This document shows, one piece after another, positions 1,552 through 20,408 of a stretch of DNA of 33,045 nucleotides; positions within the stretch are counted from its first letter, which is position 1; every line of letters starts with the position of its first letter. The notes beneath the pieces were generated by a model. That model searched no databases and had not been told where the DNA came from. It saw only the letters and a program-made list of their open reading frames with translations. The DNA comes from an archaeon (GTDB lineage Archaea; Nanobdellota; Nanobdellia; Woesearchaeales; UBA11576), in NCBI GenBank assembly GCA_020052935.1, contig JAGVOD010000015.1, forward strand, positions 1-33,045. The letters run 5' to 3'. The position numbers and the translations under genes are program-made.

Positions 1552-1783
1552 CGTTTCTTACCAGAAGTCAAGTTTATGATAGGTGGGTTTTGTGCCTGAG
1601 CTCGCCTGCTACGCAGGCTCACTGGCGCCGGCTCGCGTCGCTATGAATCTTATTGAAACGTGACCACCCCCGTATGGGGCAACCCCCGTCACGTGCTAGA
1701 TACCAAACTAAAGGGCACTCGCATATTGGCGCCACCGGCACAAAACCTGATTGACAGAACTACCGTTTCTTACCAGAAGTCAA
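1552..1783. repeat. 20-bp perfect direct repeat flanking repeat copy A (possible target-site duplication)
   Basis: CGTTTCTTACCAGAAGTCAA at 1552-1571 and again at 1764-1783; it encodes the C-terminal LTSGKKR of the adjacent minus-strand CDS. Confidence 0.8.
1586..1747. repeat. Structured dispersed repeat, copy A
   Basis: Terminal inverted repeat GGTTTTGTGCC (1586-1596) / GGCACAAAACC (1737-1747); inner stem ACGTGAC (1658-1664) / GTCACGT (1688-1694); core CCCCCGTATGGGGCAACCCCC (1667-1687) shared with copies B and C. Confidence 0.75.
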
Positions 1784-3970
1784 TCTTCTTATCACTGGAT
1801 AAAGGTCGTATGCGAGCGCTGCCAGAAGAGCTAGTATGCCTGCGAAAACAAGCCAGTGCCTGAGCCTAAGATCAGGCTTGTAGATGAACTCTGCCACGTG
1901 GCTGCCCTCGCTCACTTTGACACCCATGAAGGATGGTGAGAGGGCATATACACGAGACTCGCGACCATCAACATAGGCCTGCCAGGAAGGATGATAGCTC
2001 ATCTTGAACAGCAGATAACAGGAACGGTTCGCAACAAAAGAGGCAGCATAGTAATCCAGGTTACGGTCCTCATCAACAAGCTCACCGCAAGCAGCAAAGG
2101 CAGGAGAAGCGTGCTTGAAACGCTGCTTCAGCTCATCAGCAGAGAGAGCGTTGTTATCTTCATATATGATCTGGCTAAAATCTCCGGCATCAAACTGCTC
2201 GCCATCCTCGAACTCTGAGATGAAATCCTTGTTCTCCATCAAGCCTGTGTTGAGCCAGGCCCAATTCACACCGCGGACAAAGCCAGAGGTCATCCTACCT
2301 TCATAGACCAGCGCAGTGGAAGAGTCCACAAGGTCAAAGTAGCCCGTAGTGGGGATGCTATAGAGAGTGTAGTTGCCAGCGACAAAGACCTGCGTGAAGA
2401 AAGACGATGTAGGCGGCATGCTGGAAGGCACCAAAGCATACTTCACATTGTAGAGATTGAAGAAGCTCGGGCTCGGGAACATGAAGAACTGGATATAATA
2501 GAACGCAAGATTGTCAAGAGAGCTCATCGCAGCAGTAGAGAAGGAATCATGCGATGAATAAAGCGGGAGAAGGTTCTCATAGTACGGCTCTGCGAAACCG
2601 AGTTCGGCCCGCGAGATGAACCTGCCGTCAGGCGAGTCTTTCAGGAAACGCACCAGCTTAGAGAAATCTTCCTTATCAAAACCTGAATTCGCGATAGTGC
2701 AGAGCTTCATATTCGTCAGGAAGACCTGCGCGAAGACAGGCATAGCAAGAAGCAAGATAAGGATGCAAAGCAGGATTGTACGAGAGATACGCAGCTTTCC
2801 GCGCAGAGCATTCTCGACAGACAAGAACAGGAAGTACAGGCCATAACCTATGAAGAACAGGGCGAAGAACTGGAACGCAAACATGAAACGGAACACAGGC
2901 ATGAAACCCATGCCTGGGATGATGTCGAAGACAATGCCCCAGAAAGACCTGCCGAACATGATGGAAAGGAACACGACGAAACCAGATAGTGCAATGTACT
3001 GGGGGAAACCTTCACGACGCCTGAACGCAGCATAGAGACCGATGAATAACAGTATCGTCATCATGGCGAAAGGCACACGATAGAAATCGAGCGTCCTGCC
3101 TGTGAAAAGGTCGAACAGCACAAGAGGCGCACTGCCCTGGTAATACTCAGGCGTATTGACGTAGAACGCACCGCCATAGAAATCCTGGCTCGTCAGGAAA
3201 GGGACATAGAAATGCGAGACTACGACAAACATCAGCGCAAAGATGATGGCAAGGCACAGGAAACGCCACGCAAAGACCTTCAGTGAAGGCAGCTTGGCAA
3301 AAAGCAGCAGCACTGCACAGATGCAGGCAGCGTAGCCCACAACAGGATTGGTCAGAAGAAGCAAAGACAATAGCAGGACTGAGAGGAAATAGCCTCGCCT
3401 TTCAGACAACGTGATGAATACCCTCACAAGCGCTATCGGGAATAAAGACAAAGCAAGAAGATGCGTGAATATGCCATGCGTGATAAGGGAAAAGCCGATG
3501 TCACCATGCCCGACGCTGCTCGAAAGCAAAAAAGAGACCAGCGAGGCGAGAGCGGCAGGAATCTTAGCAAGACCAAGCCGCGTCATTCCATAATAAAGGC
3601 TTAACGGGAACAGGGCTACGCAAAGGACCACCAGGAGCTTCTGGATGGTGAGGATGGAAACAAGCTTGAATGTCAAGAAGTGCAGCAGCACCATGAAGAA
3701 ATGAGCAAAGTACTGGTAATAATCATACGACGGAAAACCCATAGACCAGGCGCTGTTCCAGTTGCCGAAAACACCTTTTCCAGATTCCAACCTGAAAGCC
3801 AGGTCCTGCGCAGAGGCATAATGCGCAGTGCCATCACCGCCGACAAGGCACCAGCCATCGAAAAGAGGCAGCAGAAGGAGGAAATTGATTATGACCGCGG
3901 CTATGAGGATAAGCTTAGCGAGCTTGCTGTCATCAGCTTCAATGTTTCTTACTTTCTTTTTTCTCTTCAT
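1760..3970 (-). CDS. Large polytopic membrane protein (6-pyruvoyl-tetrahydropterin synthase-related / YfhO-like membrane family)
   Basis: Many hydrophobic segments; N-terminal GGDGTAHYASAQDLAFRLESGKGVFGNWNSAWSMGFPSYDYYQYFAHF resembles that membrane family. The ORF track starts at a GTG (3988) inside repeat copy B; ATG at 3970 (MKRKKKVRN) is the more likely start. Confidence 0.7.
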   Translation of the reverse strand: MKRKKKVRNIEADDSKLAKLILIAAVIINFLLLLPLFDGWCLVGGDGTAHYASAQDLAFRLESGKGVFGNWNSAWSMGFPSYDYYQYFAHFFMVLLHFLTFKLVSILTIQKLLVVLCVALFPLSLYYGMTRLGLAKIPAALASLVSFLLSSSVGHGDIGFSLITHGIFTHLLALSLFPIALVRVFITLSERRGYFLSVLLLSLLLLTNPVVGYAACICAVLLLFAKLPSLKVFAWRFLCLAIIFALMFVVVSHFYVPFLTSQDFYGGAFYVNTPEYYQGSAPLVLFDLFTGRTLDFYRVPFAMMTILLFIGLYAAFRRREGFPQYIALSGFVVFLSIMFGRSFWGIVFDIIPGMGFMPVFRFMFAFQFFALFFIGYGLYFLFLSVENALRGKLRISRTILLCILILLLAMPVFAQVFLTNMKLCTIANSGFDKEDFSKLVRFLKDSPDGRFISRAELGFAEPYYENLLPLYSSHDSFSTAAMSSLDNLAFYYIQFFMFPSPSFFNLYNVKYALVPSSMPPTSSFFTQVFVAGNYTLYSIPTTGYFDLVDSSTALVYEGRMTSGFVRGVNWAWLNTGLMENKDFISEFEDGEQFDAGDFSQIIYEDNNALSADELKQRFKHASPAFAACGELVDEDRNLDYYAASFVANRSCYLLFKMSYHPSWQAYVDGRESRVYALSPSFMGVKVSEGSHVAEFIYKPDLRLRHWLVFAGILALLAALAYDLYPVIRRLTSGKKR

Positions 3971-3977
3971 TTTTTCT

Positions 3978-4105
3978 AGCAGCGCCACGCCAGGCTCGGC
4001 GAGCGCATCTTTTGCCGAAGGCGCTGTCCCCCCGTAGGGGGCAACCCCCGACTACGCGCGTGTGGTTGGGGTGGTATCGCCTCGCGAATTGGCGGTGGCG
4101 CTGCC
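3978..4105. repeat. Structured dispersed repeat, copy B
   Basis: Imperfect terminal inverted repeats AGCAGCGCCACGCC (3978-3991) / GGCGGTGGCGCTGCC (4091-4105); core CCCCCCGTAGGGGGCAACCCCC (4028-4049). Confidence 0.75.
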
Positions 4106-4106
4106 A

Positions 4107-4739
4107 CTAAACCTCATCTTCAAGGTCCATCACTTGGGCGGTAGCTATCGCTTCCTTGACAATATTGTCAACATCTATCTTCGACTCCTCATTCTCTATC
4201 CTCGCAAGATGCGCCTTTGTCACAGGCATCTTAGGGACAGCGTTGCAGCACGATGCAGCCTCGACAGAAAGCTGATAGGTACCTATCTTCTTACCCACGT
4301 CGACAATCTCCTGCTTGTCGTTGCACAGGAGAGGCCTGAGTATGGGAATCTTGACTGCTGAAGCCGCGACAGTCATGTTCTCCAATGTCTGCGAAGCGAC
4401 CTGGCCGAGATTCTCGCCAGTCAACAGGAAATCGCAATTCTCCTTCTTGGCTATCTGCTCAGAGACGCGCAGCATCATACGCCTGCACAGGACGCAACGC
4501 ATCTTGTTATCGCACTTGCGCATCAGTTCTGCCTGGACAAGGACGCCATGCTTGACTATGTACAACTTGGGTATGTGGAGATGCCTGCAGATCTCTATCG
4601 TCTTCTCCCTCGGGCTGGAGAAAGCAAGAGGCTCGTTGGAGAAATGTATTCCTATCACTTCGAGGCCAAGCTGCTTCATCTTCCACGCAGCGACAGGAGA
4701 GTCGATGCCTGCAGAGATCAAAGCGAGGACGCGGGTCAT
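4107..4739 (-). CDS. ThiI-type PP-loop sulfurtransferase domain protein (no THUMP domain)
   Basis: PP-loop SAGIDSPVAAWKMKQLG; CVLCRRMM; LLTGENLGQVASQTLENM typical of ThiI. Only 210 aa, so N-terminal ferredoxin-like/THUMP domains are absent. Confidence 0.85.
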   Translation of the reverse strand: MTRVLALISAGIDSPVAAWKMKQLGLEVIGIHFSNEPLAFSSPREKTIEICRHLHIPKLYIVKHGVLVQAELMRKCDNKMRCVLCRRMMLRVSEQIAKKENCDFLLTGENLGQVASQTLENMTVAASAVKIPILRPLLCNDKQEIVDVGKKIGTYQLSVEAASCCNAVPKMPVTKAHLARIENEESKIDVDNIVKEAIATAQVMDLEDEV

Positions 4740-5914
4740 CTTCGTGACACTGCCTTAGCAGGCCTCCTGAAAATGAAAAATGACGCAGCGATGCAGCCGA
4801 CGATGATCACGAAGCTGATGATCCACATCAATACCTGTATGCCAAACCACTGAACGATAGCTCCTCCGAACAGGAAACTGATGAGAGGACCAACCATCGC
4901 GATGGACGCGTAGGTGCCCATCACAAAGCCCTGCCTCCCGGTCTCAGCAGCAATACCTGACATGAATGCCCAGGCAGAGACATTCCACAATGCGATGCCT
5001 GCACCGACGCAAAGAAGCATGATGAAGAAGAACACATAACTATGCATGAAAGCAAGGACGATGAAAGAGACGCCGATGACCAATGCGCCAATGATGATCA
5101 GCCAAGGCTGGCTGACCCTGTCGCAGAGCATGCCTGCCGCAAACTGGAACAGCATGAAGAACTCGAGGGCGAAGAACGCGTAACCGACGTAACGGTAAGG
5201 CAGGCCGAAAGACTCGACGATGTAGATAGGGATGAAGACAGATGTTATAGGAGAGGTCGCGTTCATGACTATACCGAGTATGCCCATGCCCCTAAGGCGC
5301 GGGTCGGAGAAGAACATCCTGACCTTGTCGAAGAAATTGAAGTCTGAGGCAGAGAACTTGTGCTTCACCACAAGAGACTCCCGCATAGAGACAAGCCACA
5401 ACATGACGAGGAGGGCGAACATCGAAAGCAGGAACGGAGCCCTGACAAACATGTAGTCTGCGAGGAACCCTCCGATGACCGGAGCGATGAGCTTCCCGAC
5501 ATGCATTATGCTCAACGCAAAGCCAGAATACTTCCCACGGGTCTTTGACTCCAAAGAGTCCTGCAGGCCTGCGAGACCGACGATAACAACCGCAGAGTAA
5601 GCCAACGCCTCCAAGAAGCGGGCGACAATGACCAAGTACCACAGACCAGACAGGTAAAGCGCTATGGCCACTACCTGGACCATTATCCCCGCAATCATGA
5701 CCTTCTTGCGGCCTATCACATCAGACAAAGAGCCGAAAGTCGCGGATGTGATGAGCATGGTGAAAGAGAACAATGCATAGAGTAGGCCGACCTGGAAATC
5801 AGAGAACCCGAGGCTCTTGACATAAGGCGCAAGGACAGGATTGAACAGGAAAACACAGAACATGAAAAATGCAGTAAGCTCTGTCGAGTGCAGATAGCCA
5901 TCTACGTGATTCAT
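4736..5914 (-). CDS. MFS transporter
   Basis: About 12 hydrophobic segments; GSLSDVIGRKKVMIAG (MFS loop 2-3 signature), FLADYM. 4-bp overlaps with both neighbours. Confidence 0.85.
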   Translation of the reverse strand: MNHVDGYLHSTELTAFFMFCVFLFNPVLAPYVKSLGFSDFQVGLLYALFSFTMLITSATFGSLSDVIGRKKVMIAGIMVQVVAIALYLSGLWYLVIVARFLEALAYSAVVIVGLAGLQDSLESKTRGKYSGFALSIMHVGKLIAPVIGGFLADYMFVRAPFLLSMFALLVMLWLVSMRESLVVKHKFSASDFNFFDKVRMFFSDPRLRGMGILGIVMNATSPITSVFIPIYIVESFGLPYRYVGYAFFALEFFMLFQFAAGMLCDRVSQPWLIIIGALVIGVSFIVLAFMHSYVFFFIMLLCVGAGIALWNVSAWAFMSGIAAETGRQGFVMGTYASIAMVGPLISFLFGGAIVQWFGIQVLMWIISFVIIVGCIAASFFIFRRPAKAVSRR

Positions 5915-6903
5915 CCAGCACCACCCACCTTGTAGATCTCCTCAGAGACCTTCCTTATCTTAGCCTCGTCCTTCATGTCCTTGAACAAGAGCTCGCCATA
6001 GTCATGCACTATTATCTCGCCTTCGTGATCTATGACCAGCAGGATCGGCGTGTCCATCACTACCTTGTACTTCTTCCTGATATCTGCCAAGTTGAGCTTG
6101 ATGTTCTTCGCAGGCTTTGCAGACCAGCCCTTCCTGGTCTTGCACTTCTGTACTGTGAAATCACGCTGCTTACCTTCGAGAAGCTCGTACTTTCCAGCGC
6201 AGACATTGCAACTAGGAAGCTTCTTGACCTTTATCTTCTCAATAACGTGGGTGATGGAATCTATGCGGAGCATATCGGGCTCTGCGGGTTTTTTGAGGAG
6301 GATCTTCAACGCTTCTGTGACCTGGATTGAAGCTGTGATGTGGCTTGTCGAGTTGAGTATGCCGAGCTCCTCGCAAGAGCCTTGCTGAGCGACCTTCGGG
6401 AAAACACACTTGAAGCAAGGCCCGCCAGGGAGGAAGTTTATTATGACTCCTTTCTCCTGGACTGCTGCAGAGTGTATCCAAGGCAACTTGGTTTTCACGC
6501 AGAACTCGTTGATGAGAAGGCGAGTATCTATATTATCAGTGCAGTCAAGCACCAGATCAGAGCCAGAGAGAAGAGTTAAGATGTTCTCGAAATTCAGGTT
6601 AGCGTCATGCGCTGTGACCTTGACCTCGCTGTTTATCCTGCCGAGATGCGACTTCAGGCAAGATGCCTTGGGCTTAGAGACATCATCTTCTGTGTAAAGC
6701 GCCTGGCGCTGCAGATTAGACAGTTCAACAACATCGTGGTCTATAATAGTAATGTTGCCTATTCCTGCTCTGGCAAGAAGCTCTGCAGTGACAGAGCCGA
6801 GAGCGCCACAGCCAACTATCGCTATACTGCTTGACGCCAGCATCTTCTGGCCATCCCGGCCTATGAATCCAAGAACCTCTTGACGCGAATAACGGCTATC
6901 CAT
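5911..6903 (-). CDS. E1-like adenylyltransferase, ThiF/MoeB/HesA (UbaA-like) family
   Basis: SRQEVLGFIGRDGQKMLASSSIAIVGCGALGS (nucleotide binding), DHDVVELSNLQRQ, DCTDNIDTRLLINEFC, CxxC...CxxC zinc motif. Confidence 0.9.
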   Translation of the reverse strand: MDSRYSRQEVLGFIGRDGQKMLASSSIAIVGCGALGSVTAELLARAGIGNITIIDHDVVELSNLQRQALYTEDDVSKPKASCLKSHLGRINSEVKVTAHDANLNFENILTLLSGSDLVLDCTDNIDTRLLINEFCVKTKLPWIHSAAVQEKGVIINFLPGGPCFKCVFPKVAQQGSCEELGILNSTSHITASIQVTEALKILLKKPAEPDMLRIDSITHVIEKIKVKKLPSCNVCAGKYELLEGKQRDFTVQKCKTRKGWSAKPAKNIKLNLADIRKKYKVVMDTPILLVIDHEGEIIVHDYGELLFKDMKDEAKIRKVSEEIYKVGGAG

Positions 6904-7113
6904 GCATCGCGATAAAGGCGATGGTTTTAAATGCTTTTTGGAGGGGAAAAAGGCAAAACATATTTAAAGTACCTCTGAACAACAGAAAAGTATGCATTTC
7001 AAGTTCATATATGCAGAATACGCGCATTTCAGGTTTTGAATAGCTAGTTCTCTGACTTTTTTAATACAATCATCCGATTTAATCCTTATCCAATAAATCA
7101 TAAAGGTGCTAAA

Positions 7114-8172
7114 ATGATAAACGAAGAACACGAAAATAAAGAAGAAAACCAAGAAGGCTACCGCAGTTTCAAGCGGATGAGGCACTGCAACACGCTTGAC
7201 GATTACCCGCAGATAAAAGGATATGATTTCGAGCAGCCATTCGACTTCGACAGGTTCATAGCCTCGTTCGCCACGACAGGCATACAGGCCGCGGAGGTGG
7301 CGAAAGGCATCGACACGATAAACGCGATGATAGACGACCGCGCAAAGATATACCTGTCCATGACCTCCAACATAATCTCATCAGGGATGAGGGAGAACAT
7401 AACGTTCCTCGTAAAGCACAAGTTCGTCGACGTAATAGTCACGGCAGCAGGAGCAATTGAGGAGGACGTGCTAAAGACCATGAGGCCTTTCGTGGCAGGG
7501 TCATTCGACGTGCCAGGAAGGATGCTGTTCGAGCAGGGCGTAGGCAGGATAGGAAACATATTCGCGCCATTCGACAGGTACATCTACCTCGAGAACTTCA
7601 TGAAGCCATTCTTCGAGAAGATGTACACACTGCAGCAAGAGCGCGGAAGACCATTATCAGTCACGGAATTCACGCACGAGCTAGGACTTGCGGTAAATAA
7701 CGAAGAGTCATTCCTATACTGGGCTGCGAAGAACGACATACCTGTGTTCTGCCCGGCGCTGACAGACGGCTCTATAGGCGACCTGTTCTACTTCCTCAAG
7801 AAGAAGCATGACGACTTCTACATAGACATCGTAGAAGACACTAAGAAGATAATCAAACTAGTCCTCCATACAGAAAAGACAGGAGCGATAATCCTCGGCG
7901 GAGGATCAGCGAAACACTTCGTGCTGAACTCCAACATATTCAAAGACGGCCTGGACTATGCCGTGTATATCACGACAGCGCAGGAATTCGACGCATCAGA
8001 CTCTGGAGGGAACCCGCAGGAAGCCATCACGTGGGCAAAACTCAGGGTGAACTCTCTGAACGTAAAGATAAAATGCGAAGCGAGCGTCGTCTTTCCCCTG
8101 ATGGTCGCGGCGACATTCGCGAAGAGATACCATGAGATAAAGAAAACGACAAAAAAAGAACGCTTTGGCTAA
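7114..8172 (+). CDS. dys: Deoxyhypusine synthase
   Basis: GGGSAKHFVLNSN (catalytic Lys region), YAVYITTAQEFDASDSGGNPQEAITWAK, SGMRENITFLVKHKFVDVIVTAAGAIEED, all characteristic of DHS. Confidence 0.9.
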   Translation: MINEEHENKEENQEGYRSFKRMRHCNTLDDYPQIKGYDFEQPFDFDRFIASFATTGIQAAEVAKGIDTINAMIDDRAKIYLSMTSNIISSGMRENITFLVKHKFVDVIVTAAGAIEEDVLKTMRPFVAGSFDVPGRMLFEQGVGRIGNIFAPFDRYIYLENFMKPFFEKMYTLQQERGRPLSVTEFTHELGLAVNNEESFLYWAAKNDIPVFCPALTDGSIGDLFYFLKKKHDDFYIDIVEDTKKIIKLVLHTEKTGAIILGGGSAKHFVLNSNIFKDGLDYAVYITTAQEFDASDSGGNPQEAITWAKLRVNSLNVKIKCEASVVFPLMVAATFAKRYHEIKKTTKKERFG

Positions 8173-8276
8173 AAAACGGTTTAAATGCGCTTAAAACCCG
8201 CATAAACAGAACCTTTAAATAAGAGATTGCAGCGAAAGCGCATCTTATCATAAGGGAGGAGTGAGAACAAACAGAA

Positions 8277-9713
8277 ATGGACCACATCGCATTTTCAGGA
8301 CTGCGGAGCCAAGAAGTCCAAGCTTATTCTTATCTACGACCAAGATGGACATTCGCCAGCGTCCATGACGGCATACTGCACATAGAAGGAAAATCAGTAG
8401 AAGAAATCGCAAGAGAACATGGAACCCCATTCTACCTCCTTGTCGAAAATGAGATACGGACCAGGCTAAGGCGTTTCCAGGATGCATTCCCCTACACGCC
8501 ATTCCAGCCGCAATACGCCGTGAAGTGCAACTCAAACCCTGCAATCCTGAAGATCGTACGCGAAGAAGGGTTCGAAGCAGACGCCTCAAGCCTGGGAGAG
8601 ATAATGCTCGCGCTGAAATCCGGCTTCAAGCCAGAACAGATCATGCTCACAAACCAATACAAGTCCCCTGAGGAGCTATGCACAGCAATATCGCTCGGCA
8701 TCAAGGCGCTCGGGATAGACTCTATCGAGGACCTCGAGGACACGATAGACATCGCAGAACGCCTCAACAAGGAAGCGAACATATTCCTCAGGATCAATGC
8801 AAAGATAAGGCATGGTGAAGGATACGACACCACGCAACACCAATACGGAATACCCATCGACGCTGCAGAAGAGGCAATAATGAGAGCGACGAGGGAGAGA
8901 CACGTGAGGCTCGTCGGGCTACACTGGCACGGAGCCTACGTGCCAGACCCTGAAGTCTACTTCGAGGCGATGCGCAAGATAGTACCTCTCGCAGACCTCG
9001 CCAAGAAGGCAGGCAACCCGATAGAGTTCCTGGACTTCGGCGGAGGATTCCCCGCAGAATACGGCGAAGGAAAAGCATTCACTCCCGAAGACATGGGCAA
9101 GGAGTTCGCCAGCAGGCTAGAGAAGATGCTGGAAGAGACCGGACTCGAGACACCGACGCTGATATTCGAGCCAGGAAAGTTCATAGTCGCAAACGCAGGC
9201 ATGGCAGTGATAAGAGTGGTCAGCTTCAAGGACCTGGGAGACAACAAGCTCATAGTAACAGACGGAGGGACATACAACATGCTCCCCGACCCGCTGGTAT
9301 GGGACTGCCATTATGATGTCCTGCCCGCCAACAAGATGGACCAGCCGCCTGAAGTCAGATACTCTGCAATCAAAGGGAACACGTGCGACCACCTCGACGC
9401 CATAGCCAAAGACAGACTCCTCCCGCCGCTAAAAAGAGGCGACCTGCTTGTCGTGACAGACTGCGGAGCATACAGCAATGTACTGGCATCAAACTTCAAC
9501 TGCCGCAAAATGCCGAAGATGCTCATGATAAGAGGGGATGGAAAGATTGACGTGATAAGACGGCCAGAGACCTACGAAGAGATGTTCGCGGCAGAGCTCG
9601 ACACCGAAGAAAGAGAGGAAGACCAGATGGTCGCAGAGATGATATACGACGGCAACCAAAGAAGGACTGCAAGGAGACGTAGAAGAGCAGGAATCCAACT
9701 TCTCAAGTCATAA
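8277..9713 (+). CDS. Group IV PLP-dependent (alanine-racemase-fold) decarboxylase: diaminopimelate/ornithine/arginine decarboxylase family, substrate uncertain
   Basis: YAVKCNSNP (PLP Lys), HWHGAYV, DFGGGFP, EPGKFIVA, GNTCDHLD (ODC-like CDxLD rather than the LysA-type CESxD). Confidence 0.85.
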   Translation: MDHIAFSGLRSQEVQAYSYLRPRWTFASVHDGILHIEGKSVEEIAREHGTPFYLLVENEIRTRLRRFQDAFPYTPFQPQYAVKCNSNPAILKIVREEGFEADASSLGEIMLALKSGFKPEQIMLTNQYKSPEELCTAISLGIKALGIDSIEDLEDTIDIAERLNKEANIFLRINAKIRHGEGYDTTQHQYGIPIDAAEEAIMRATRERHVRLVGLHWHGAYVPDPEVYFEAMRKIVPLADLAKKAGNPIEFLDFGGGFPAEYGEGKAFTPEDMGKEFASRLEKMLEETGLETPTLIFEPGKFIVANAGMAVIRVVSFKDLGDNKLIVTDGGTYNMLPDPLVWDCHYDVLPANKMDQPPEVRYSAIKGNTCDHLDAIAKDRLLPPLKRGDLLVVTDCGAYSNVLASNFNCRKMPKMLMIRGDGKIDVIRRPETYEEMFAAELDTEEREEDQMVAEMIYDGNQRRTARRRRRAGIQLLKS

Positions 9714-9716
9714 TGC

Positions 9717-10130
9717 TCAGATATCAAGGCTGACCCGGCATACATAGCCATCCTTTGTCTTCTTGAATTCGTACTGGTGATAAGTAACGGCCTTGACGAC
9801 AGTCTTGCCCTTGCTTTGGGAGACAGGCTCGCCATAGACAAATGCAGTGAGATGCGTATCGTCAATACGCGTTATCTTGAACTTAGAGAAGAACATACCC
9901 TCGATGTCGACAGCAGCGATAAGCGACTGCAGCCAGTTCACCATCAGGTCATCTATCGAATCCGCATTCACCTCGAGCTTCTTCTCATCCTTCGGAGCGA
10001 CAGACTCGACTCTGCACATGACAAAGAACAATGCTTCAGCAGCGTTAGAGAACACTTCCTTCAGGTCCTTGCCATACGCCTCGAACATCACGTCAGAGGT
10101 TATCCCTTCGATGAATTTGTATTTCTGCAT
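9717..10130 (-). CDS. Archease
   Basis: MQKYKFIEGITSDVMFEAYGKDLKEVFSNAAEALF...VKAVTYHQYEFKKTKDGYVCRVSLDI matches the archease pattern. Confidence 0.85.
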   Translation of the reverse strand: MQKYKFIEGITSDVMFEAYGKDLKEVFSNAAEALFFVMCRVESVAPKDEKKLEVNADSIDDLMVNWLQSLIAAVDIEGMFFSKFKITRIDDTHLTAFVYGEPVSQSKGKTVVKAVTYHQYEFKKTKDGYVCRVSLDI

Positions 10131-10132
10131 GT

Positions 10133-10474
10133 TCAGTAGAGTTGTATCCTGTCGTCATCAAGTATGTCCTGCGCACTGCTCTTCTTGCCGTCCTCTTCCA
10201 CCACAGCGAGCGTAGGCTGCGGAGCCTGCTGAGGGGAGTCAGAGAATATGGAGAACATCGATGGAGCGGACTGCTGGGACTGCGGCTCGGCGGGCTGGCT
10301 GGAACTGTCGCCGAACATGCCCATCATGCCGACAGAAGGTGAAGGGTCATCGAAGATGTTGCGTGACTTGATCACGACATTGCTAGACGCGGAGCTTGAA
10401 AGCGCCATGAGCATGTTAGCTAGATGACGCAACTCCTCCTTTGAATCAGACTTCGTATCGACCTCAATCCTCAT
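10133..10474 (-). CDS. Hypothetical protein with Ser/Gln/Pro-rich tail
   Basis: ORF 2 bp upstream of archease in an apparent operon; low-complexity S/Q/P region. Confidence 0.6.
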   Translation of the reverse strand: MRIEVDTKSDSKEELRHLANMLMALSSSASSNVVIKSRNIFDDPSPSVGMMGMFGDSSSQPAEPQSQQSAPSMFSIFSDSPQQAPQPTLAVVEEDGKKSSAQDILDDDRIQLY

Positions 10475-10487
10475 CTTTCCTCACCTT

Positions 10488-10874
10488 CTAACCCACAAAC
10501 CAATAATGAAGATAAACGACCTTGTACTGACTGGTCTCATTGGAAGTTATGAAAACAGTCTCGGTATAAATATCCTTTGCCCCTGTCGATGGAGGCGGCG
10601 CATTTATGGATATCCTGAAATCATAATTGTTAGGTATCAACGGGCTTATGAGGGACTCTGCGCAGGTCGCGTTATTGGCGTAGATGCACGCCCGGAAATC
10701 ATCACGCTGCTCCAGCGCAGGAAGGATATCAACCTGCGTCTTCAGAGGCTTGCCCGCAGCGCCCTTAAGAACGACAAAGACCACGAATATGAAAGTAAGG
10801 AAAAATGCGAAGAACGCCTCCAGCGTGAGCAGGTACGCCTTCCGGTTCTTTCTTCTGCTACGCATCTTCACCAC
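10488..10874 (-). CDS. Single-pass membrane protein with pilin-like N-terminus
   Basis: MRSRRKNRKAYLLTLEAFFAFFLTFIFVVFVVLKGA: basic segment, one N-terminal TM with an embedded Glu, then an extracytoplasmic domain. Confidence 0.6.
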   Translation of the reverse strand: MVKMRSRRKNRKAYLLTLEAFFAFFLTFIFVVFVVLKGAAGKPLKTQVDILPALEQRDDFRACIYANNATCAESLISPLIPNNYDFRISINAPPPSTGAKDIYTETVFITSNETSQYKVVYLHYWFVG

Positions 10875-12121: not shown

Positions 12122-12186
12122 ATTATGAGAGAAATGGCCTGATTGGTTAATAAATGTTGCTGCAGGAATGAAACGAGGAGAGCGGC

Positions 12187-12933
12187 TCATCTTTTCGCAA
12201 TCCCCCACAGGTTATAGAAAAACGTCCTGAAAGACTGCGCTATCTCTGGATTCTTAACAGAGAGGCAAGAAGGCTCCTTACCGTATGTAAGTATGAGGAC
12301 GCAGTTTCCTAGGACATCAACGGCAGAAGGGGTTATCCCGTCAATCACCCGCACTTCGGTGTGCTTCATCTTCTTGAAAGTACTATAATACTCTGTGCTC
12401 CTATCCGAGAATATCGCTTTGCAGGCAATCTTCTTCGCAATCCTTTCCTTGTGCCACTTCTGCCAGGCGAGATTGTACTGTTTTTCTTTCCTTGAGACGA
12501 TGCCCATGGCGAGAACCTCATCTTCGGGAGTAAGCTCATGCAGCGCCTCGAAGATTGCTGTCTGGATTCCCTTGAACCCCTTAAACAAAGTCGTCTCGTA
12601 TTCCTTCTCGCCAGCCTTCTCGATGGCAAGCAACGCTGGCAGCTCTTTTTGCAACTCAGCTTCCTTCTCTCGGACTTCTCTCTCCTTCTCGTGCAGGTAA
12701 TCGGCAATGCGGTTCGGGGAAGCTGCTATGAAGTATTTTGTCTTCTCCTTGATGATGTAGCTCGCCAGGCCTTTTGATATCAGCTTGTTAAGGATCTCGT
12801 AGATCTTGCCGCTTGATATCTGGGCAGCCTCGACTATCTTACCTGTCGTCGTCTCCCCAAGCTTCAGAAGTGTCAGATAGACGGTTATCTCTCCCTTCGT
12901 GAGGCCTATCTCCTCGAGCAGCTTCTCATTCAT
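12187..12933 (-). CDS. TrmB family transcriptional regulator
   Basis: N-terminal wHTH LLEEIGLTKGEITVYLTLLKLGETTTGKIVEAAQISSGKIYEILNKLISKGLASYIIKEKTKYF, then helical linker and C-terminal domain. Confidence 0.85.
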   Translation of the reverse strand: MNEKLLEEIGLTKGEITVYLTLLKLGETTTGKIVEAAQISSGKIYEILNKLISKGLASYIIKEKTKYFIAASPNRIADYLHEKEREVREKEAELQKELPALLAIEKAGEKEYETTLFKGFKGIQTAIFEALHELTPEDEVLAMGIVSRKEKQYNLAWQKWHKERIAKKIACKAIFSDRSTEYYSTFKKMKHTEVRVIDGITPSAVDVLGNCVLILTYGKEPSCLSVKNPEIAQSFRTFFYNLWGIAKR

Positions 12934-13046
12934 ACGGCGAGGAAGGATTATCAGGTATTTAAATTTTCCTTATTTACACCTCACCAGGTGGGAGAAAGAT
13001 TATATATACTACAGAAGTTATTTCCAACAAGTAGTTAACAGATACG

Positions 13047-14237
13047 GTGAGGGTGAAAATGCAGAAAATAATCAGAAGCGAACTTGCGGACTATACCCAA
13101 GAAGAGATATTAGCAGTAGCGGAGGGGCTTTACGGATTCAAGAAAATCCGTGCCTATATGTTGGCGGGAAAAGACGATCGGGTATGTGAAACTGCAAATG
13201 AGGAATTAAGATATGCGGGAGTGAGTGGCGGAAGACATCCTGAAGTATGTTACCCATTTACTGAAGATAATTGGCCTGTGTTACGGGTGAAAAAAGAGTT
13301 CGATGAGCAAGGAATCCCATATAGTGCCGAAGTTGTGCGGGAATCGCTCAAGAAATCCAGGCTATCGCCTTATGCGGATGACCATCCTGTCGATGTCGAA
13401 ACCGTAAAGACAATAGATTCTGTATTGGCAGAGAACGGCCTTGATGAGCAAGAGCGGAATGATTTCTTTGTGAGAGCAAGGGAAGATGCTCGTAAAAGGG
13501 GGGGAGTAGAAACTTTTGGTTTCTGGTATCATAGAAAGGAGACGATGTTCTCAATACTTGCAAAATATACCGGACTGCCGAGGAAGGAAGTTGTGGATGT
13601 GTACCTTGATGCTTTATTCAAAGATGGACATAGCTTTTTTTGGAGTGAGGCCCGTGACAAGTATAAACATCTTGAAGAGTTCTTGGACGCTGAAGGGATA
13701 CCTGTAGACGAGATTGTGCCAAGGGCTATCAAAGCATTAGACGACCTTCGTGATGACTCAGAGAGATTATGGCTAATGAATGGTATAAGTAGTATTGATG
13801 GGGTAGTTCTTCCAAAGACACTTGCCCTGGATTTAGTCACCAAATACATTGCAGAAGGACACCGGTTGAGCGAGGAGGATTACGACAACAAGGATTGCTA
13901 CCCTTTGCTTCACGGACTTAAAGATCACCCGAGAATAAGAAAGCTCCGCGAGAAACTTGTGCTGAGGCGGATAGAAGAGAGTGGTCCATATCCGGGGTTA
14001 ATAAGTACTGCAATCAATGAGTTTGGTCTGGATATCAAAACCAGCCCATTGAAAGAAGTTGTGGAAAAATCATTCAAGAAATGCTATGAAAGTACACGAC
14101 CGGATGAGTTGAGGCATTTTGTAAATGCCGCATACGAGTTGGATATGTTCCACGGGGTCGATCTCCTGCCAGCAAAGGAAAGACAGGCTCTCAGGAGAAA
14201 AGCCAGACTTATCGAAATATTAACATCAGATTGTTGA
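13047..14237 (+). CDS. Hypothetical protein, mostly helical, no recognised domain
   Basis: 396-aa ORF with upstream promoter-like ATTATATATACT and an AGGGTG ribosome-binding-like site. Confidence 0.65.
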   Translation: MRVKMQKIIRSELADYTQEEILAVAEGLYGFKKIRAYMLAGKDDRVCETANEELRYAGVSGGRHPEVCYPFTEDNWPVLRVKKEFDEQGIPYSAEVVRESLKKSRLSPYADDHPVDVETVKTIDSVLAENGLDEQERNDFFVRAREDARKRGGVETFGFWYHRKETMFSILAKYTGLPRKEVVDVYLDALFKDGHSFFWSEARDKYKHLEEFLDAEGIPVDEIVPRAIKALDDLRDDSERLWLMNGISSIDGVVLPKTLALDLVTKYIAEGHRLSEEDYDNKDCYPLLHGLKDHPRIRKLREKLVLRRIEESGPYPGLISTAINEFGLDIKTSPLKEVVEKSFKKCYESTRPDELRHFVNAAYELDMFHGVDLLPAKERQALRRKARLIEILTSDC

Positions 14238-14290
14238 GAAGTTTGCAGTGTAACTGCTGGCGCAAAAAGTTTTGGGACCATAGAAAATTC

Positions 14291-15448
14291 TCAAACCCAC
14301 TCCAGCTCTACTATAAGCTCGTCCCAGGTCGGGTATTCTGTGACGATGGCAGGCTTGAGACCTGAGGACTTGATGTCCTTTGCGAGCTCTGAGACGACTT
14401 TTATGTTTGTCAGAAGACGCAGCTTATGTTCATCTATGAAAAGCAGTTCCTTGGGAACATCATAGATACGCATGAGATGGAACTTGAAGATGCTCAGCTT
14501 CTTCATCACTATGCCGCGCTGCTTCGGGTTCAACTCTGATAGCTTCTTCTCATAGCCGATTGATGGACAGAGATAAGGAAGGTATATCGCTCCTCTAGTA
14601 AGCATGCCGCTCTTCTCCACGATGTCAAATGGACGTTTTGTTTTCTTTGCGCGGCGCTGGATACGCTTACTTAACTGGACAGCATCTTTCAACTTTGCAG
14701 TGCAGTAATGCACAGAGTAAGAGAACCTGTTTTTCTGGGCGAACTTCAGAAGCTCCAATGCGAGCGACTCGGAGCCTTTGATACCGTATGACAGACTGTC
14801 CTTGGTCTTGAATCCCAACTTAGAGACCTTGCTTGCCTCTGCGTCAGAGACCTCTAGCTCGTTCAGGTTGAGGAACTTGATTTTATTATTCAGGAACTTG
14901 AGGAGTTTCTCTGTCTGCTTCTTCATGCCAGGGATGACTGGTATTTCGACACCGACATCCCACTTGAACTTGTTCGCTATGTTGATTCTCTGCCACAACT
15001 TGTCATCCTGAAGGTCTGCGTGGAAACGTATCTCATCAAGGCCTGCGACGTAAAGTAGTTTGAGGCGGTCTTCTGTCACCAAGTCAAAAGAGGTGTAGAG
15101 ATGGATGTGGAATGCTTTTCCGAAACGCTGCTTCAACGCGCGTATGTAAGCCACAGTGCGGTTAATCTTTACTAACGGGTCACCGCCTGTGAAGCCAGCG
15201 CCCTTGGAGCTACATAACTCTGCTTCCTTAAGGATGTCGTCGATGTTGCTCGTCGGCCACTCATTCGCGTAAGTGACATCATGCTGATGCTTCTTGTCAG
15301 AGATAGGACAATAGAAACAGTTTCTCGGGCAGAGGCCTGTGACAAATAAAACAGTCTTTTCACCCTTGACGCAGAGCTGGCAGCCTTTGGCGAGAGGGCC
15401 TAGCCTGTAAGAGAAGAAAGGGGTCTTTGTGATGCCCTGCTTTGCCAT
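14291..15448 (-). CDS. Radical SAM protein
   Basis: GLCPRNCFYCPI (CxxxCxxC), GAGFTGGDPLV (GGE-like), plus a N-terminal Cys pair GCQLCVKG. Confidence 0.88.
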   Translation of the reverse strand: MAKQGITKTPFFSYRLGPLAKGCQLCVKGEKTVLFVTGLCPRNCFYCPISDKKHQHDVTYANEWPTSNIDDILKEAELCSSKGAGFTGGDPLVKINRTVAYIRALKQRFGKAFHIHLYTSFDLVTEDRLKLLYVAGLDEIRFHADLQDDKLWQRINIANKFKWDVGVEIPVIPGMKKQTEKLLKFLNNKIKFLNLNELEVSDAEASKVSKLGFKTKDSLSYGIKGSESLALELLKFAQKNRFSYSVHYCTAKLKDAVQLSKRIQRRAKKTKRPFDIVEKSGMLTRGAIYLPYLCPSIGYEKKLSELNPKQRGIVMKKLSIFKFHLMRIYDVPKELLFIDEHKLRLLTNIKVVSELAKDIKSSGLKPAIVTEYPTWDELIVELEWV

Positions 15449-15488
15449 GGAAACGATGAAAACCTGCTTGTTTTTTAATCTTCCCTTA

Positions 15489-16517
15489 TCAAAGTATTAT
15501 ATGACCTTTCTTCACAGCGTCCTCAAGATGCTTATCAGGCCAGACGCTAGACTGCACCTCACCTATGTGCGCTTTCTGCAGCAGGAGCATGCAAAGCCTC
15601 GACTGGCCTATTCCGCCTCCGATCGATAGAGGGATTGTGCCATCCATCACACCCTTGTGGAACTCCAATGACTTCCTGTGATGCAGACCAGCCATATCAA
15701 GCTGCTTCTCCATGGACTTGGCATCGACACGTATTCCCATAGATGAAATCTCAAGAGCTTTACCTCTTACAGAGTCCCACACGATTATATCACCGCAAAG
15801 ACCGTGGCCTTTCTCAGTCGCTGTAGACCAGTCGTCGTAGTCTGCTGCCCGCAGGTCATGCGGCTTGCCAGATTTCAGGGGATGGCCTATTCCTATGATG
15901 AATACAGCGCCGTGCTTCTTCGCAATCTCGTCCTCCCTATCCTTCGGACTCAGATGAGGAAAGAGGTCCTCAAGCTCCTCTGTGTGGATGAAAAATATAT
16001 CCTTGGGAAGCAACCTCTTCAACTGAGGGAATGCCTTTGAAACGACCTCCTCAGTATCCAAGACGGCAGCGTAGATCTTCATGACTACTTCCTTCAGGAA
16101 ACCGAGAGTCCTCTGCTCTTTCGTAATGACTCTCTCCCAGTCCCACTGGTCGACGTAGATGCTGTGTATCTCGTCAACATCCTCATCTTTCCTTATCGCA
16201 TCCATATCTGTGTAAAGTCCAGTGCCTGGCTTGAAACCGTGCTTGCCCAGGGTGTAACGCTTCCACTTCGCAAGGCTATGCACAACCTCGACAGGATCGT
16301 CACAGAACTTTGTCTTGAATGAAACAGGCACTTGCGTGCCAGCAAGATCATCCTGCAGGCCTTTGCCGACTTTGAGGAAACGCGGAGCAGTCACCCTAAT
16401 CAGGCCAAGCTTCTCTGCAAGCTTATGCTCGAACGTATCCTTGACCAGCTTTATGGCTCTCTCTGTCTCGAAAAAGCCGAGCTTTGGCTTTGACTCCTGA
16501 ATTGCAACCTGTTTCAT
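15489..16517 (-). CDS. asnA: Aspartate--ammonia ligase (AsnA type)
   Basis: EVVHSLAKWKRYTLGKHGF, SIYVDQWDWERV, DLRAADYDDWSTATEKGHGLCGDIIVWD, ISSMGIRVD, IGGGIGQSRLCMLLLQKAHIGEVQSSVWP: clear AsnA motifs. Confidence 0.95.
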   Translation of the reverse strand: MKQVAIQESKPKLGFFETERAIKLVKDTFEHKLAEKLGLIRVTAPRFLKVGKGLQDDLAGTQVPVSFKTKFCDDPVEVVHSLAKWKRYTLGKHGFKPGTGLYTDMDAIRKDEDVDEIHSIYVDQWDWERVITKEQRTLGFLKEVVMKIYAAVLDTEEVVSKAFPQLKRLLPKDIFFIHTEELEDLFPHLSPKDREDEIAKKHGAVFIIGIGHPLKSGKPHDLRAADYDDWSTATEKGHGLCGDIIVWDSVRGKALEISSMGIRVDAKSMEKQLDMAGLHHRKSLEFHKGVMDGTIPLSIGGGIGQSRLCMLLLQKAHIGEVQSSVWPDKHLEDAVKKGHIIL

Positions 16518-16864
16518 TTTATCTCCCTCTCAATACTTGATAATATCATCTCCCTACATCCCTCACCATATCTGACATGGCCCAATCCTTCCAATCGCGC
16601 CCATGCCTGCCTGGCTTCAGGAATTTCTCCTACTTCCAGCGGCGGGTCTCCGACAACGAAGGACATGTCCCTCGCGCTGCAACCTGTCCTCCTCTGCACA
16701 ACATCAAGCATGTCCCTGACCGCATCATCAATGCTTATGTACGTCAGGCTGCCACCGCCCGATCCGATACACTTTTCTCTGCCTTGCTCATGCAGATGCC
16801 AGTCAAAGACAGGCATTTCCTGACCACATATCCTTGTGTATACCGTGTATTTTCCTTCTGACAT
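16514..16864 (-). CDS. Small hypothetical protein, translationally coupled to asnA
   Basis: ORF overlaps the asnA start by 4 bp; MSEGKYTVYTRICGQEMPVFDWHLHEQGREKCIGSGGG. Start taken at the internal Met (16864) rather than 16879. Confidence 0.55.
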   Translation of the reverse strand: MSEGKYTVYTRICGQEMPVFDWHLHEQGREKCIGSGGGSLTYISIDDAVRDMLDVVQRRTGCSARDMSFVVGDPPLEVGEIPEARQAWARLEGLGHVRYGEGCREMILSSIEREIK

Positions 16865-16995
16865 TCTCTCACCACCCAATTATGTTATTATGTTGGTCAC
16901 TCTCTTTTGTGATATTTCATACATTCTGCTTGTTCTTAAATCTACTCCATAAATATTGGAAATAATGGCTAAAAATAGAAAGTTTTATATAATAA

Positions 16996-17013
16996 ATGGA
17001 ACAATTGTTCCAT
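16996..17013. promoter_or_regulatory. 18-bp perfect palindrome, putative operator at the asnC-family promoter/start
   Basis: ATGGAACAATTGTTCCAT equals its own reverse complement; downstream of TATA-like TTTATATAATA (about 16984-16994), ends 1 nt before the ATG at 17015. Confidence 0.75.
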
Positions 17014-17014
17014 A

Positions 17015-17464
17015 ATGGCTTACGATATGGACGAGAAAGACCTGAAGATTCTGGATATACTGAAAGAACACGGCGATTATACCACCAGGCAGATCGCCAA
17101 AAAAACACTTCTTCCGCCTACAACGATACACAACAGGATACGAAAGCTCAAAGAAGACGGAGTGATAAAGAAGTTCACTGTGCAGCTGGACGGCGAAAAG
17201 GTCGGCAAAGGATTCATGACATACATCCTGATATCCGTAGATATGGGCTTGCTTAAACAGAAGCATAAGACGCAGTATGACATCGTCACTGAGCTGAAGA
17301 AACTCGACTTCGTCGAGAGGGCGGATATCGTGGCAGGAGGGACAGACCTCGTCGCGATAGTCAGGGTGAAAGATGTGGCAGAGTTCGACAAGGTGCTGCT
17401 CGGCAAGATACAGCTGATAGAAGGAGTGGACAAGACACAGTCATTGATAGTGATACACGGATAA
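17015..17464 (+). CDS. Lrp/AsnC family transcriptional regulator
   Basis: DEKDLKILDILKEHGDYTTRQIAKKTLLPPTTIHNRIRKLKEDGVIKKFTVQLDGEKVG HTH plus RAM-like C-terminal domain. Confidence 0.92.
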   Translation: MAYDMDEKDLKILDILKEHGDYTTRQIAKKTLLPPTTIHNRIRKLKEDGVIKKFTVQLDGEKVGKGFMTYILISVDMGLLKQKHKTQYDIVTELKKLDFVERADIVAGGTDLVAIVRVKDVAEFDKVLLGKIQLIEGVDKTQSLIVIHG

Positions 17465-17496
17465 AATGAGAAAAGGATAATAGTAAGAATAATGCG

Positions 17497-18072
17497 CTAA
17501 ATCTCTTTTTTTCTATCTTCTAAATATTTTAGATAGAGCTTTTTAGTTGTTTCTGTTGAAAACGGCCGCGATTTTGGTTTATCATCATTCTCCAAGTATT
17601 CTATCATTTGCGCACGGTTTTTCTTAAGAATCTTCATCAGAGCAGGAAAACCTTTAGGTGTTGCCATCCACACATAATCTAAGTCATTGAATGTTCCCAG
17701 CACCAGGTCATCCTTGTAAATATCATTCTCGCCAAAAGCCCAATTATCATGTATTGAAACCATGCGGACTATCCTTTTGACCTTGTCTTTTGGGTAAGAA
17801 ACCTCAGCCAGTATTCTTTTGGCAATTATTGCACTCGCTCTCATATGCGCCTCTCTTAGATCCAGTTTGAAAGGGTTGTCTTTAGGCACCTCAGCATAAC
17901 CTACATCATGTAAAATAACCAGCGGGAGCAATAAAGAATCATCCAGGTTTTCCTGCTCACAAACAAAAATCGCGTCCTTCATCATCCATTTGATATGATC
18001 AATATCCATCGGGCGACCTTTTTCATAGTAAAGTTTTGCCAACTTCCAGATTTCAGAGTAGATCTTTTTCAT
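17497..18072 (-). CDS. HD domain phosphohydrolase-like protein
   Basis: LLPLVILHDVGYAEVP (HD), second His region SIHDNWAFGEND. Confidence 0.75.
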   Translation of the reverse strand: MKKIYSEIWKLAKLYYEKGRPMDIDHIKWMMKDAIFVCEQENLDDSLLLPLVILHDVGYAEVPKDNPFKLDLREAHMRASAIIAKRILAEVSYPKDKVKRIVRMVSIHDNWAFGENDIYKDDLVLGTFNDLDYVWMATPKGFPALMKILKKNRAQMIEYLENDDKPKSRPFSTETTKKLYLKYLEDRKKEI

Positions 18073-18076
18073 ATTG

Positions 18077-18856
18077 TCACGTGAACAGTTTCTGATAATT
18101 CATGAAAATATTACTTGCGGTGTCTTCTATCGTCGTGCCTTTTATCTCTGCGATCTTCTTCAATGACTCAATGACGAATGCAGGCTCATTGCGCTGGCCG
18201 GGGAACGGAGAGAGATATGGACAATCAGTCTCGGTGAGGAGCTGGGAGATGTGGACATTCCTGATCATCTCCTGGAAGTGCTCGCTCTTGACGACATTCG
18301 TCGGTATCGAAAAGCTCCAGCCCTTGTCTGCAGCGCGCTTGATGAGGGACTTCTTTCCTGAGAAACAATGAAGCACGACTTTCTTGGCATCGGATGCTTC
18401 TAGCATTTCTATTACGTCTGCTTCTGCTTTCCTTGAATGCACGATGAGCGGGATGTCGAGCTTCTTTGACAGATTTATGAACTTCTGGAACAGTTCTTTC
18501 TGCATGTCTTTGTCTTTGCAGTTCTTATAGTCCAATCCCACTTCTCCGATGGCAATCGGCTTTGCTTTCTCTATCTTCTCAAGCTCAGCATCGACGTCGT
18601 AAGGCAGCATCTTCAACGGATAACCGCCGCAAGTCACCTCTTCCTGCAATGCATCAGGAGGATAGATGCCAAGGGCGGGCTTTACGATGTCATACTTCTT
18701 GGCGAATTGAAGAACATAAGCATTCGTCTCAGGGTCGACCCCGTTGGCTATGATTATCTTTACTCCGGCGGCCTTTGCTCTCGCAACAACCTCATCACGG
18801 TCCTTGGCGAACATCTCGTGGTCGAGATGCGCATGAACATCGACTAAAAGCACCAT
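18077..18856 (-). CDS. TatD family metal-dependent hydrolase
   Basis: DVHAHLDH, AIGEVGLDY, PLIVHSRKAEADV, VLHCFSG, LLTETDCPYLSP. Confidence 0.92.
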   Translation of the reverse strand: MVLLVDVHAHLDHEMFAKDRDEVVARAKAAGVKIIIANGVDPETNAYVLQFAKKYDIVKPALGIYPPDALQEEVTCGGYPLKMLPYDVDAELEKIEKAKPIAIGEVGLDYKNCKDKDMQKELFQKFINLSKKLDIPLIVHSRKAEADVIEMLEASDAKKVVLHCFSGKKSLIKRAADKGWSFSIPTNVVKSEHFQEMIRNVHISQLLTETDCPYLSPFPGQRNEPAFVIESLKKIAEIKGTTIEDTASNIFMNYQKLFT

Positions 18857-18899
18857 GAGAGAATAGGATTGATAGAGGGGTTTTAAACTTTACTGATAA

Positions 18900-19508
18900 T
18901 CATTCATCAGCACACGGCTCTGGCTTGTCTAACAAATGCCGGATATAACCATCCCAAACAGTGAACCGCGCCTTGTCCAGAGCCAAGCCAGCATCATAGA
19001 AACCCCTCGCCATCCTTGGACTGTTGAATGTCTCTGCAGCTATGACTATGAGATGCTCAAGGACATCAGCATCATCCCTGAAGTTATGCAGAGCATGATT
19101 GACAAAGGCATCTGCCTCAACAAAAGAGAACTGTCCTTTGTCAGCAAGCTTGTGGATATAATAAAGCTTCAGCAATACTGCTTCCTTGGAAAGCGGAGAA
19201 GAGTGCACTGCCTCATTAACATAAAAGACAGCCTCATCATAATCGCCAGCAAGATAGTTCATGAGGGAACGGCCCACAATGGCGATCGGATTCTCTGGGT
19301 CGATGCTCTGGAGCTCCCTCGCAGCAGCCATGTCAAACTCATCGCAATCATAGATGAATGCTTTTACGCGCTGCTCAAGCGCAAGCACTTGCGCCTTACG
19401 ACGCTTCTCCTTCCCAGCCTCAAAAGAGAGCAATACTCCACTTTCTGCAGGCTTGACATCATCTGAATCAGCCATAAAACGCCTCATAAACCCCCAAAAC
19501 AGCCCCAA
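18900..19508 (-). CDS. Hypothetical helical-repeat (TPR-like) protein
   Basis: Repeated helix pairs such as MNYLAGDYDEAVFYVNEAVHSSPLSKEAVLLKLYYIHKLADK. Confidence 0.6.
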   Translation of the reverse strand: MGLFWGFMRRFMADSDDVKPAESGVLLSFEAGKEKRRKAQVLALEQRVKAFIYDCDEFDMAAARELQSIDPENPIAIVGRSLMNYLAGDYDEAVFYVNEAVHSSPLSKEAVLLKLYYIHKLADKGQFSFVEADAFVNHALHNFRDDADVLEHLIVIAAETFNSPRMARGFYDAGLALDKARFTVWDGYIRHLLDKPEPCADE

Positions 19509-19691
19509 AACAGCCCTTAATCCCCTATTTAAAATATTGAAAAACGCCTATTTAAAACTAACTTTCCAAGGCAAAGGCGGTTTAAAAAGCCAACAATAAC
19601 ATTTATAAACAATTCTCTAATAACCAGAACCGCGCAAAATGCGACAGAAAAGGGGGAAATCGAACAAAATCTAGTAGAAGGAAGGTGATTA

Positions 19692-20207
19692 ATGATGGCA
19701 ATAGTAGGCTTTGAATTCACAAAAATAAATGTGAAAAGGCAGGAAGTAGCGCAGGGAAAGATAAACATAAGCAACACAGTAGGCATCGTAGACATAAAAC
19801 GAAACGACATAGTCGCAGGCAAGAACACGCAGAACGGGATAAAGTTCGTCTTTGACTACAAGTCGCTCTACGAGCCGAACTTCGCAAAGATAGAGCTCGA
19901 AGGCACAATCCTATACCTCACAGACGAAAAGAACGCAAAAGAGATACTCGACTCATGGGAGAAGGACAAGAGAGTGAGCAAGGACATAGCTGAGAAGATC
20001 ATCAACACAATACTGACAAGATGCAACATACAGTCAATAATCCTCAGCAACACAGTCAACCTGCCGCCGCCAGTGCCCATGCCCAAAGTGAACATAGCGG
20101 CCGGGCCTGCACAGCCGGCAGGACAAGCAGCCAAGCCAGCTGAGAAGCCCGCAGAGAAAGCGCCAAAGGCAGAGAAGAAAGACAAACAGGAGAGCCTGAA
20201 GAAATAA
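19692..20207 (+). CDS. Hypothetical protein with SecB-like pattern and low-complexity K/A/E/P tail
   Basis: FEFTKINVKRQEVAQGKINISNTV...VFDYKSLYEPNFAKIELEGTI...ILTRCNIQSIILSNTVNLPPPVPMPKVN; the pattern resembles the SecB fold but was not verified. Confidence 0.55.
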   Translation: MMAIVGFEFTKINVKRQEVAQGKINISNTVGIVDIKRNDIVAGKNTQNGIKFVFDYKSLYEPNFAKIELEGTILYLTDEKNAKEILDSWEKDKRVSKDIAEKIINTILTRCNIQSIILSNTVNLPPPVPMPKVNIAAGPAQPAGQAAKPAEKPAEKAPKAEKKDKQESLKK

Positions 20208-20220
20208 ATGTTCATAATTC

Positions 20221-20372
20221 AGCAGTGCCACGCCAGATTAAACTGGCAGTGGCACGCGAAGCTCGGCGTCTGAGCGTCTGGTTGAAGGGGCTGTGTCCCC
20301 GGATGGGGCAACCCCCCACGACGCCCGCGTTGTTTAAACTGAAACGCCTCGCAAATTCGCGGTGCCACTGCT
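20221..20372. repeat. Structured dispersed repeat, copy C
   Basis: Ends AGCAGTGCCACGCC... / ...CGCGGTGCCACTGCT; internal hairpin GTGCCACGCCAG-attaaa-CTGGCAGTGGCAC; core CCCCGGATGGGGCAACCCCCC (20297-20317). Confidence 0.75.
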
Positions 20373-20408
20373 GCAAGGAATGAGTGGGGCGCTGCTTAAC
20401 CAACAAAA

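Follow-up and report, generated by a model that had tools for sequence, protein, structure and literature searches.

Palindromic repeats and described systems

Miniature inverted-repeat transposable elements (MITEs) of prokaryotes are short, non-coding, intergenic, stem-loop-forming sequences of high copy number, with terminal inverted repeats (TIRs) and target-site duplications (TSDs) of 8-9 bp; QMITE2 of Coxiella has direct repeats of 7-9 bp and TIRs of 23-29 bp (review PMC10969869). In all these general features they resemble a family of palindromic repeats of which three copies, here called A, B and C, lie in a 33,045-nucleotide stretch of archaeal DNA (order Woesearchaeales; contig JAGVOD010000015.1 of assembly GCA_020052935.1), referred to below as the window. 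The Woesearchaeota elements differ from described MITEs in that they share a near-invariant apical core of 19 bases despite unrelated TIRs and differing TSD lengths. Furthermore, their palindrome spans nearly the whole element, its arms evolve in concert, and no parent insertion sequence (IS) was found.

Other known systems show more limited likeness. Elements of the IS6/IS26 type have the TIR consensus GGTTCTGTTGCAAA, and their archaeal members produce TSDs of 8-9 bp (PMC6807381). The ends of one Woesearchaeota subfamily come near this consensus and 8-bp TSDs flank two copies, L026 and L040; however, the ends of other subfamilies differ, and the assembly that contains the window (85% complete) has no IS240/IS6-type transposase. 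Repetitive extragenic palindromes (REPs) marked by GTAG, with their REP-associated tyrosine transposases (RAYTs), are likewise dispersed and intergenic, and part of our elements also have GTAG before a hairpin. The latter, however, possess TIRs and TSDs, are three to six times longer, and carry the motif centrally and not as a fixed GTAG. The structured RNA families of Rfam 15 share with the elements covarying helices and a conserved loop, whereas the elements show no G-U signature and no match at E<1 over ten element-bearing loci, where the one sub-threshold match was unrelated to them.

Three copies of a MITE-like element

Very probably, the three repeats belong to a large superfamily of non-autonomous, palindromic, MITE-like DNA transposons of Woesearchaeota, whose arms are kept complementary at the DNA level. 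We call the elements MITE-like because they have TIRs, TSDs and empty orthologous sites and occur in high number, mostly between genes and in random orientation. A sequence-only reading of the window had described a three-copy family of structured repeats, either MITE-like elements or a structured RNA, and had proposed to count copies in the genome and its relatives, to test for covariation and to look for a cognate transposase with matching ends.

The three copies are where this reading had placed them. A pattern search of the window locates their cores, all on the + strand, and detects no further core even when two mismatches are allowed; dinucleotide shuffles give a chance expectation of 0.00 cores without mismatch and 0.02 with two. 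The exact form of the core had to be corrected to CCCC-GKAN-GGGN-CNN-CCCC, a relaxed pattern that returns the same three matches in the window and none across 100 shuffles. In folds, the arms are complementary in all three copies and the left-arm hairpins reported for A and C are real. Features of the three copies are as follows, the limits of whole elements being the best approximate ones.

1552-1571, strand not assigned: left one of two 20-bp direct repeats around copy A, CGTTTCTTACCAGAAGTCAA (read directly)
1586-1747, + strand: copy A, whole palindromic element, with outer arms GGTTTTGTGCC (1586-1596) and GGCACAAAACC (1737-1747)
1604-1618, + strand: left-arm hairpin of copy A, GCCTGC-TAC-GCAGGC, the P2 hairpin of one subfamily (fold)
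1668-1686, + strand: apical core of copy A, CCCCGTATGGGGCAACCCC (pattern)
1764-1783, strand not assigned: right member of the direct repeat CGTTTCTTACCAGAAGTCAA (read directly)
3976-4106, + strand: copy B, whole element, filling the junction between a ThiI-domain gene and a YfhO-like gene and antisense to both
4030-4048, + strand: apical core of copy B, CCCCGTAGGGGGCAACCCC (pattern)
20221-20373, + strand: copy C, whole element with an extra left hairpin, between a gene for 171 aa and the CDC48 gene (fold)
20225-20255, + strand: left hairpin of copy C, GTGCCAC-GCCAG...CTGGC-A-GTGGCAC (fold)
20297-20315, + strand: apical core of copy C, CCCCGGATGGGGCAACCCC (pattern)

We built a covariance model from 27 copies of the B/C type in the source genome. 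It matches copy A at 1622-1734 (E 6e-8), copy B with E 2e-26 and copy C at 20243-20373 with E 5e-27, the last two being members of the model. Copy A folds at -68.5 kcal/mol (z -3.3).

A family of more than one hundred copies

The three copies are only a local sample. In the source genome (a 1.64-Mb assembly) we counted 30 exact GGGGCAACCCC cores against none for a reversed control, while the relaxed core was matched at least 116 times, in 56 cases on the forward and in 60 on the reverse strand; given this balance, the shared orientation of the window copies is a coincidence. Among 292 genomes sampled from the order Woesearchaeales, 99 also contain the relaxed core, and the reversed control pattern was matched once overall. 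Public record titles point mostly to Candidatus Woesearchaeota metagenome-assembled genomes. The covariance model also gives full-length matches to elements from other Woesearchaeota, with E-values from 1e-5 to 1e-13. No similar stretch was found in plasmids or phages. Our literature search returned no paper on such repeats in Woesearchaeota, and the family is apparently undescribed in the literature searched.

Each copy folds as a long imperfect palindrome, and the units are non-coding, multicopy and 131-168 bp long. The outer arms form a helix, P3 (for example, GCAGYRSCAC-GCCA / TGGC-G-GTGSYRCTGC), in which one G of the 3' arm is conserved and unpaired. Inside P3 is an internal loop whose 3' side is the longer one, GGCTnCG / TCGCAAAA in the source genome and CTTC / GACCTKAGG in other genomes. 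Further inward, a short helix leads to about 20-25 variable bases per side, and these in turn to an inner stem, P5, that is topped by the apical core. P5 is highly varied in the source genome (ACGTGACA/TGTCACGT, TCGCGACA/TGTCGCGA, ACAGGACA/TGTCCTGT and others) and most of its versions are complementary. In one subfamily, which includes copy A, further arms are added on the outside and the left arm, but not the right, carries a hairpin; this P2-type hairpin is equally placed in L004, L016, L018, L026 and in other genomes.

Several loci depart from this plan. Nested hairpin units occur within the apical core of L010, L019, L217, L221, L225 and L245 (280-830), and one nested-core variant reaches 500 bp, with several CCTCCG...AGG units. 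In L025 and L295, the right arm carries a second type of small element, in which two hairpins lie side by side, TCAGAAAT...ATTTCTGAGC..GCTCAGAAACC..GGTTTCTGA. Judging from this nesting, hairpin tips may be insertion hot spots, where further small palindromes are loaded or expand step by step. A dispersed repeat of Streptomyces sp. AV19, CTCCCCGGAGGGGGCAACCCCCAGACGGG (L050, L051, L063, L066 and others), also holds the 19-mer core pattern, although its flanks are otherwise unrelated. We rejected these cores as members of the family, as unrelated or convergent: their flanks differ, a GGAG variant occurs, and the covariance model mostly hits the core alone.

Target duplications and empty sites

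Direct traces of insertion are clearest for recent sister elements in two other Woesearchaeota genomes. In G065 (JACPII), 13 of 20 elements read with their flanks have exact 8-bp TSDs; their TIR is GTATTTGTTTAGCA or GTATGTGCATAGCA and their length mostly 131-135 bp. In G061 (A_NAN_12), where the count was read off the flanks, exact 9-bp TSDs bound 12 of the 17 elements with comparable flanks, the TIR being GGCTCTTAGGCAAAT and the length mostly 164-168 bp. In all, 93 and 119 TIR ends were counted in two genomes other than the source genome. Across 100 archaeal copies, a TIR together with an 8-bp TSD (one mismatch at most) was observed in 12, as against 0-2, or about 1 per 100, in ten controls with decoupled flanks. 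In the source genome, only 2 of 53 copies (L001 and L026) show an exact 8-bp TSD, with 0 of 53 in five controls, so most of these copies look old. No TSD is visible for copies B and C.

Orthologous sites were compared in four relatives of the same genus, G001 to G004. The gene junction filled by copy B measures 1 bp in G001 and G003; the spacer occupied by copy C is 201 bp here and short and element-free in G002, G003 and G004; and G001 and G003 have no element in the intergenic region that corresponds to the site of copy A. All three copies of the window are lineage-specific insertions. At the CDC48 upstream position matching that of copy C, G001 (L318, on C54) has a different hairpin-rich element with end TTTTCAATAAG, an independent insertion.

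With crude open reading frame (ORF) calling, 49 of 55 copies in the source genome are intergenic, compared to 23% of random positions. The two neighboring genes are both sense in 12 cases, both antisense in 11, convergent in 8 and divergent in 6. An intergenic location with no preferred orientation fits an inserted element and not a leader or terminator RNA.

Pairing of the arms and rival explanations

That the arms diverge while remaining complementary, as the sequence-only reading had remarked, is borne out statistically: over 24 pairs, 92.2% are paired and 16 show double changes, a level reached in none of 500 shuffles and lost on sliding. In the outer helix, 99.7% are paired, with double changes in 10 of 14 pairs. 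An inference from this to a structured RNA is not supported. Structured RNAs, whether non-coding or cis-regulatory, that fold on the conserved core and are selected for their pairing would account for the strong covariation, the stable folds and the conservation of apical loop, bulge and internal loop; yet the 14 outer pairs contain 55 double-change cells and one unpaired cell, but no one-sided (G-U) cell. Helical mismatches, scored without favoring G.T, are as often G.T as A.C (8 and 9 in copies of the source genome, 20 and 23 in others; 28 versus 32 in total), whereas 19 tRNA acceptor stems, a small control, gave 6 G.T and no A.C. Selection for an RNA on one strand should retain G.U and purge A.C; since this is not seen, pairing appears to be maintained at the DNA level. 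Random orientation to genes, copy B lying antisense to its operon, the lineage-specific insertions and the lack of any Rfam match also speak against an RNA, which we regard as very unlikely. At gathering scores, Rfam reports nothing in the window except a borderline tRNA elsewhere. Template switching is a documented means of keeping hairpin arms paired (PMC8794818, PMC8604942), and the pattern of changes suggests that copying between arms by this route is what most likely upholds their complementarity here. It leaves the conservation of the bulge, internal loop and core unexplained, and these are therefore probably under selection.

Other mobile or recombining systems may also be considered. 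Most cores of the source genome have GTAG followed by a GGGG/CCCC hairpin, in the manner of GTAG-tagged REPs, which are abundant and intergenic (PMC3733652), and a tyrosine transposase (HUH, IS200/IS605-type, RAYT) could be what moves the repeats as REP-like palindromes. Elsewhere, however, the motif is GTAA, GTAT, GGAT or GGAC, and it is central rather than terminal. Exact 8- or 9-bp TSDs are present, and tyrosine (HUH/RAYT) transposases are not known to produce these, which makes a REP origin extremely improbable. A conserved extrahelical base and an unpaired internal loop in a long hairpin also recall the attC sites of integrons, here as single-strand recombination sites of an archaeal integron. 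We give this idea almost no credence: copies are dispersed singly over most contigs and on both strands, with no cassette arrays (no IntI search was made), TSDs are present, and the apical sequence is conserved rather than R boxes. An intramolecular triplex of C4-G4-C4 is ruled out, by reasoning, on strand polarity.

Search for a mobilizing transposase

In agreement with the sequence-only reading, which saw no transposase nearby, Pfam names none among the 27 ORFs of the window, several of which have no Pfam match at all. The search for a cognate gene covered unpaired TIR sites, IS240 and one IS66-like query, and so part of the transposase families, in incomplete assemblies; it turned up no transposase gene whose ends match. 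Ends GGTTCTGTTGAAAG and GGCTCTGTTGAAAA of one subfamily agree with the IS6/IS26 consensus at 12 of 14 positions and ends GGYTCTGTTGAAAA resemble it as well, but an IS6/IS26-like TIR combined with an 8-bp TSD is confined to one subfamily; other subfamilies, including copies B and C, differ. IS240/IS6 was rejected as the driver, being absent from the source genome, while the IS240 genes of relatives lack matching ends. A genome of the same genus contains an IS66/IS6-like insertion sequence, L185 (705-2286), with TIR GGCACTGTAGCAGAA and a 436-aa transposase weakly matching both families. This candidate was also discarded: it is missing from 15 of 16 genomes tested, including copy-rich ones, and the lone match (G063) has no matching TIR. 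A pair of CTGTTGAAAG sequences 2.6 kb apart on C22, tried as an autonomous element, sits in ordinary coding sequence. Unpaired TIRs in two copy-rich genomes are mostly MITEs with a degenerate second end, and no transposase-bearing element was seen there.

Several observations count against a MITE-like origin. No autonomous partner with the same ends has appeared, despite dozens of recent copies in two genomes. Most copies of the source genome, A to C included, lack a clean 8- or 9-bp TSD, and the 20-bp direct repeat flanking copy A is no regular TSD. A single MITE family would not usually combine one core with TIRs of several types and TSDs of two lengths, and template switching is argued from the pattern of changes only.

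We nevertheless favor MITE-like transposons and envision the following mechanism. Short elements of about 130-170 bp, bounded by terminal inverted arms, would insert by cut-and-join transposition and duplicate 8 or 9 bp of target, a duplication shown for sister elements and a few copies of the source genome. The transposase would act in trans and most likely be of the DDE type. Template switching during replication of hairpin-prone DNA would keep the arms complementary around the near-invariant core; the core, the one-base bulge and the internal loop with its longer 3' side probably hold sequence or structure required for mobilization. Elements with differing TIRs and TSD lengths, and hence presumably differing transposases, all keep the core. 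On these grounds we raise, as a tentative and rather doubtful proposal, that the apical core is a recognition module for a mobilization or replication factor: a second, hairpin-tip signal needed for MITE amplification in Woesearchaeota, possibly acting on extruded or single-stranded DNA.

Other observations in the window

In the CDC48 gene, about 85 mostly charged residues (about residues 395-482; window 21590-21860) are inserted relative to same-genus orthologs. A GatE-like ORF (24740-27865) encodes 1041 aa, and its GatB_N domain begins at residue 435 after an N-terminus much longer than usual. The borderline Rfam tRNA match, at 31437-31502 on the - strand, barely attains the gathering score (29.1 versus 29) and is not reported by ARAGORN; it is possibly an odd or degraded tRNA.

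Implications

Woesearchaeota genomes of about 1-2 Mb can hold more than 100 copies of one small transposon family. The dozens of paired changes in this family, where mismatched intermediates are almost missing, caution against taking covariation by itself as proof of a functional RNA, and the family offers a natural test bed for the evolution of long palindromes. A conserved tip on unrelated ends raises a testable question on how such elements are mobilized.

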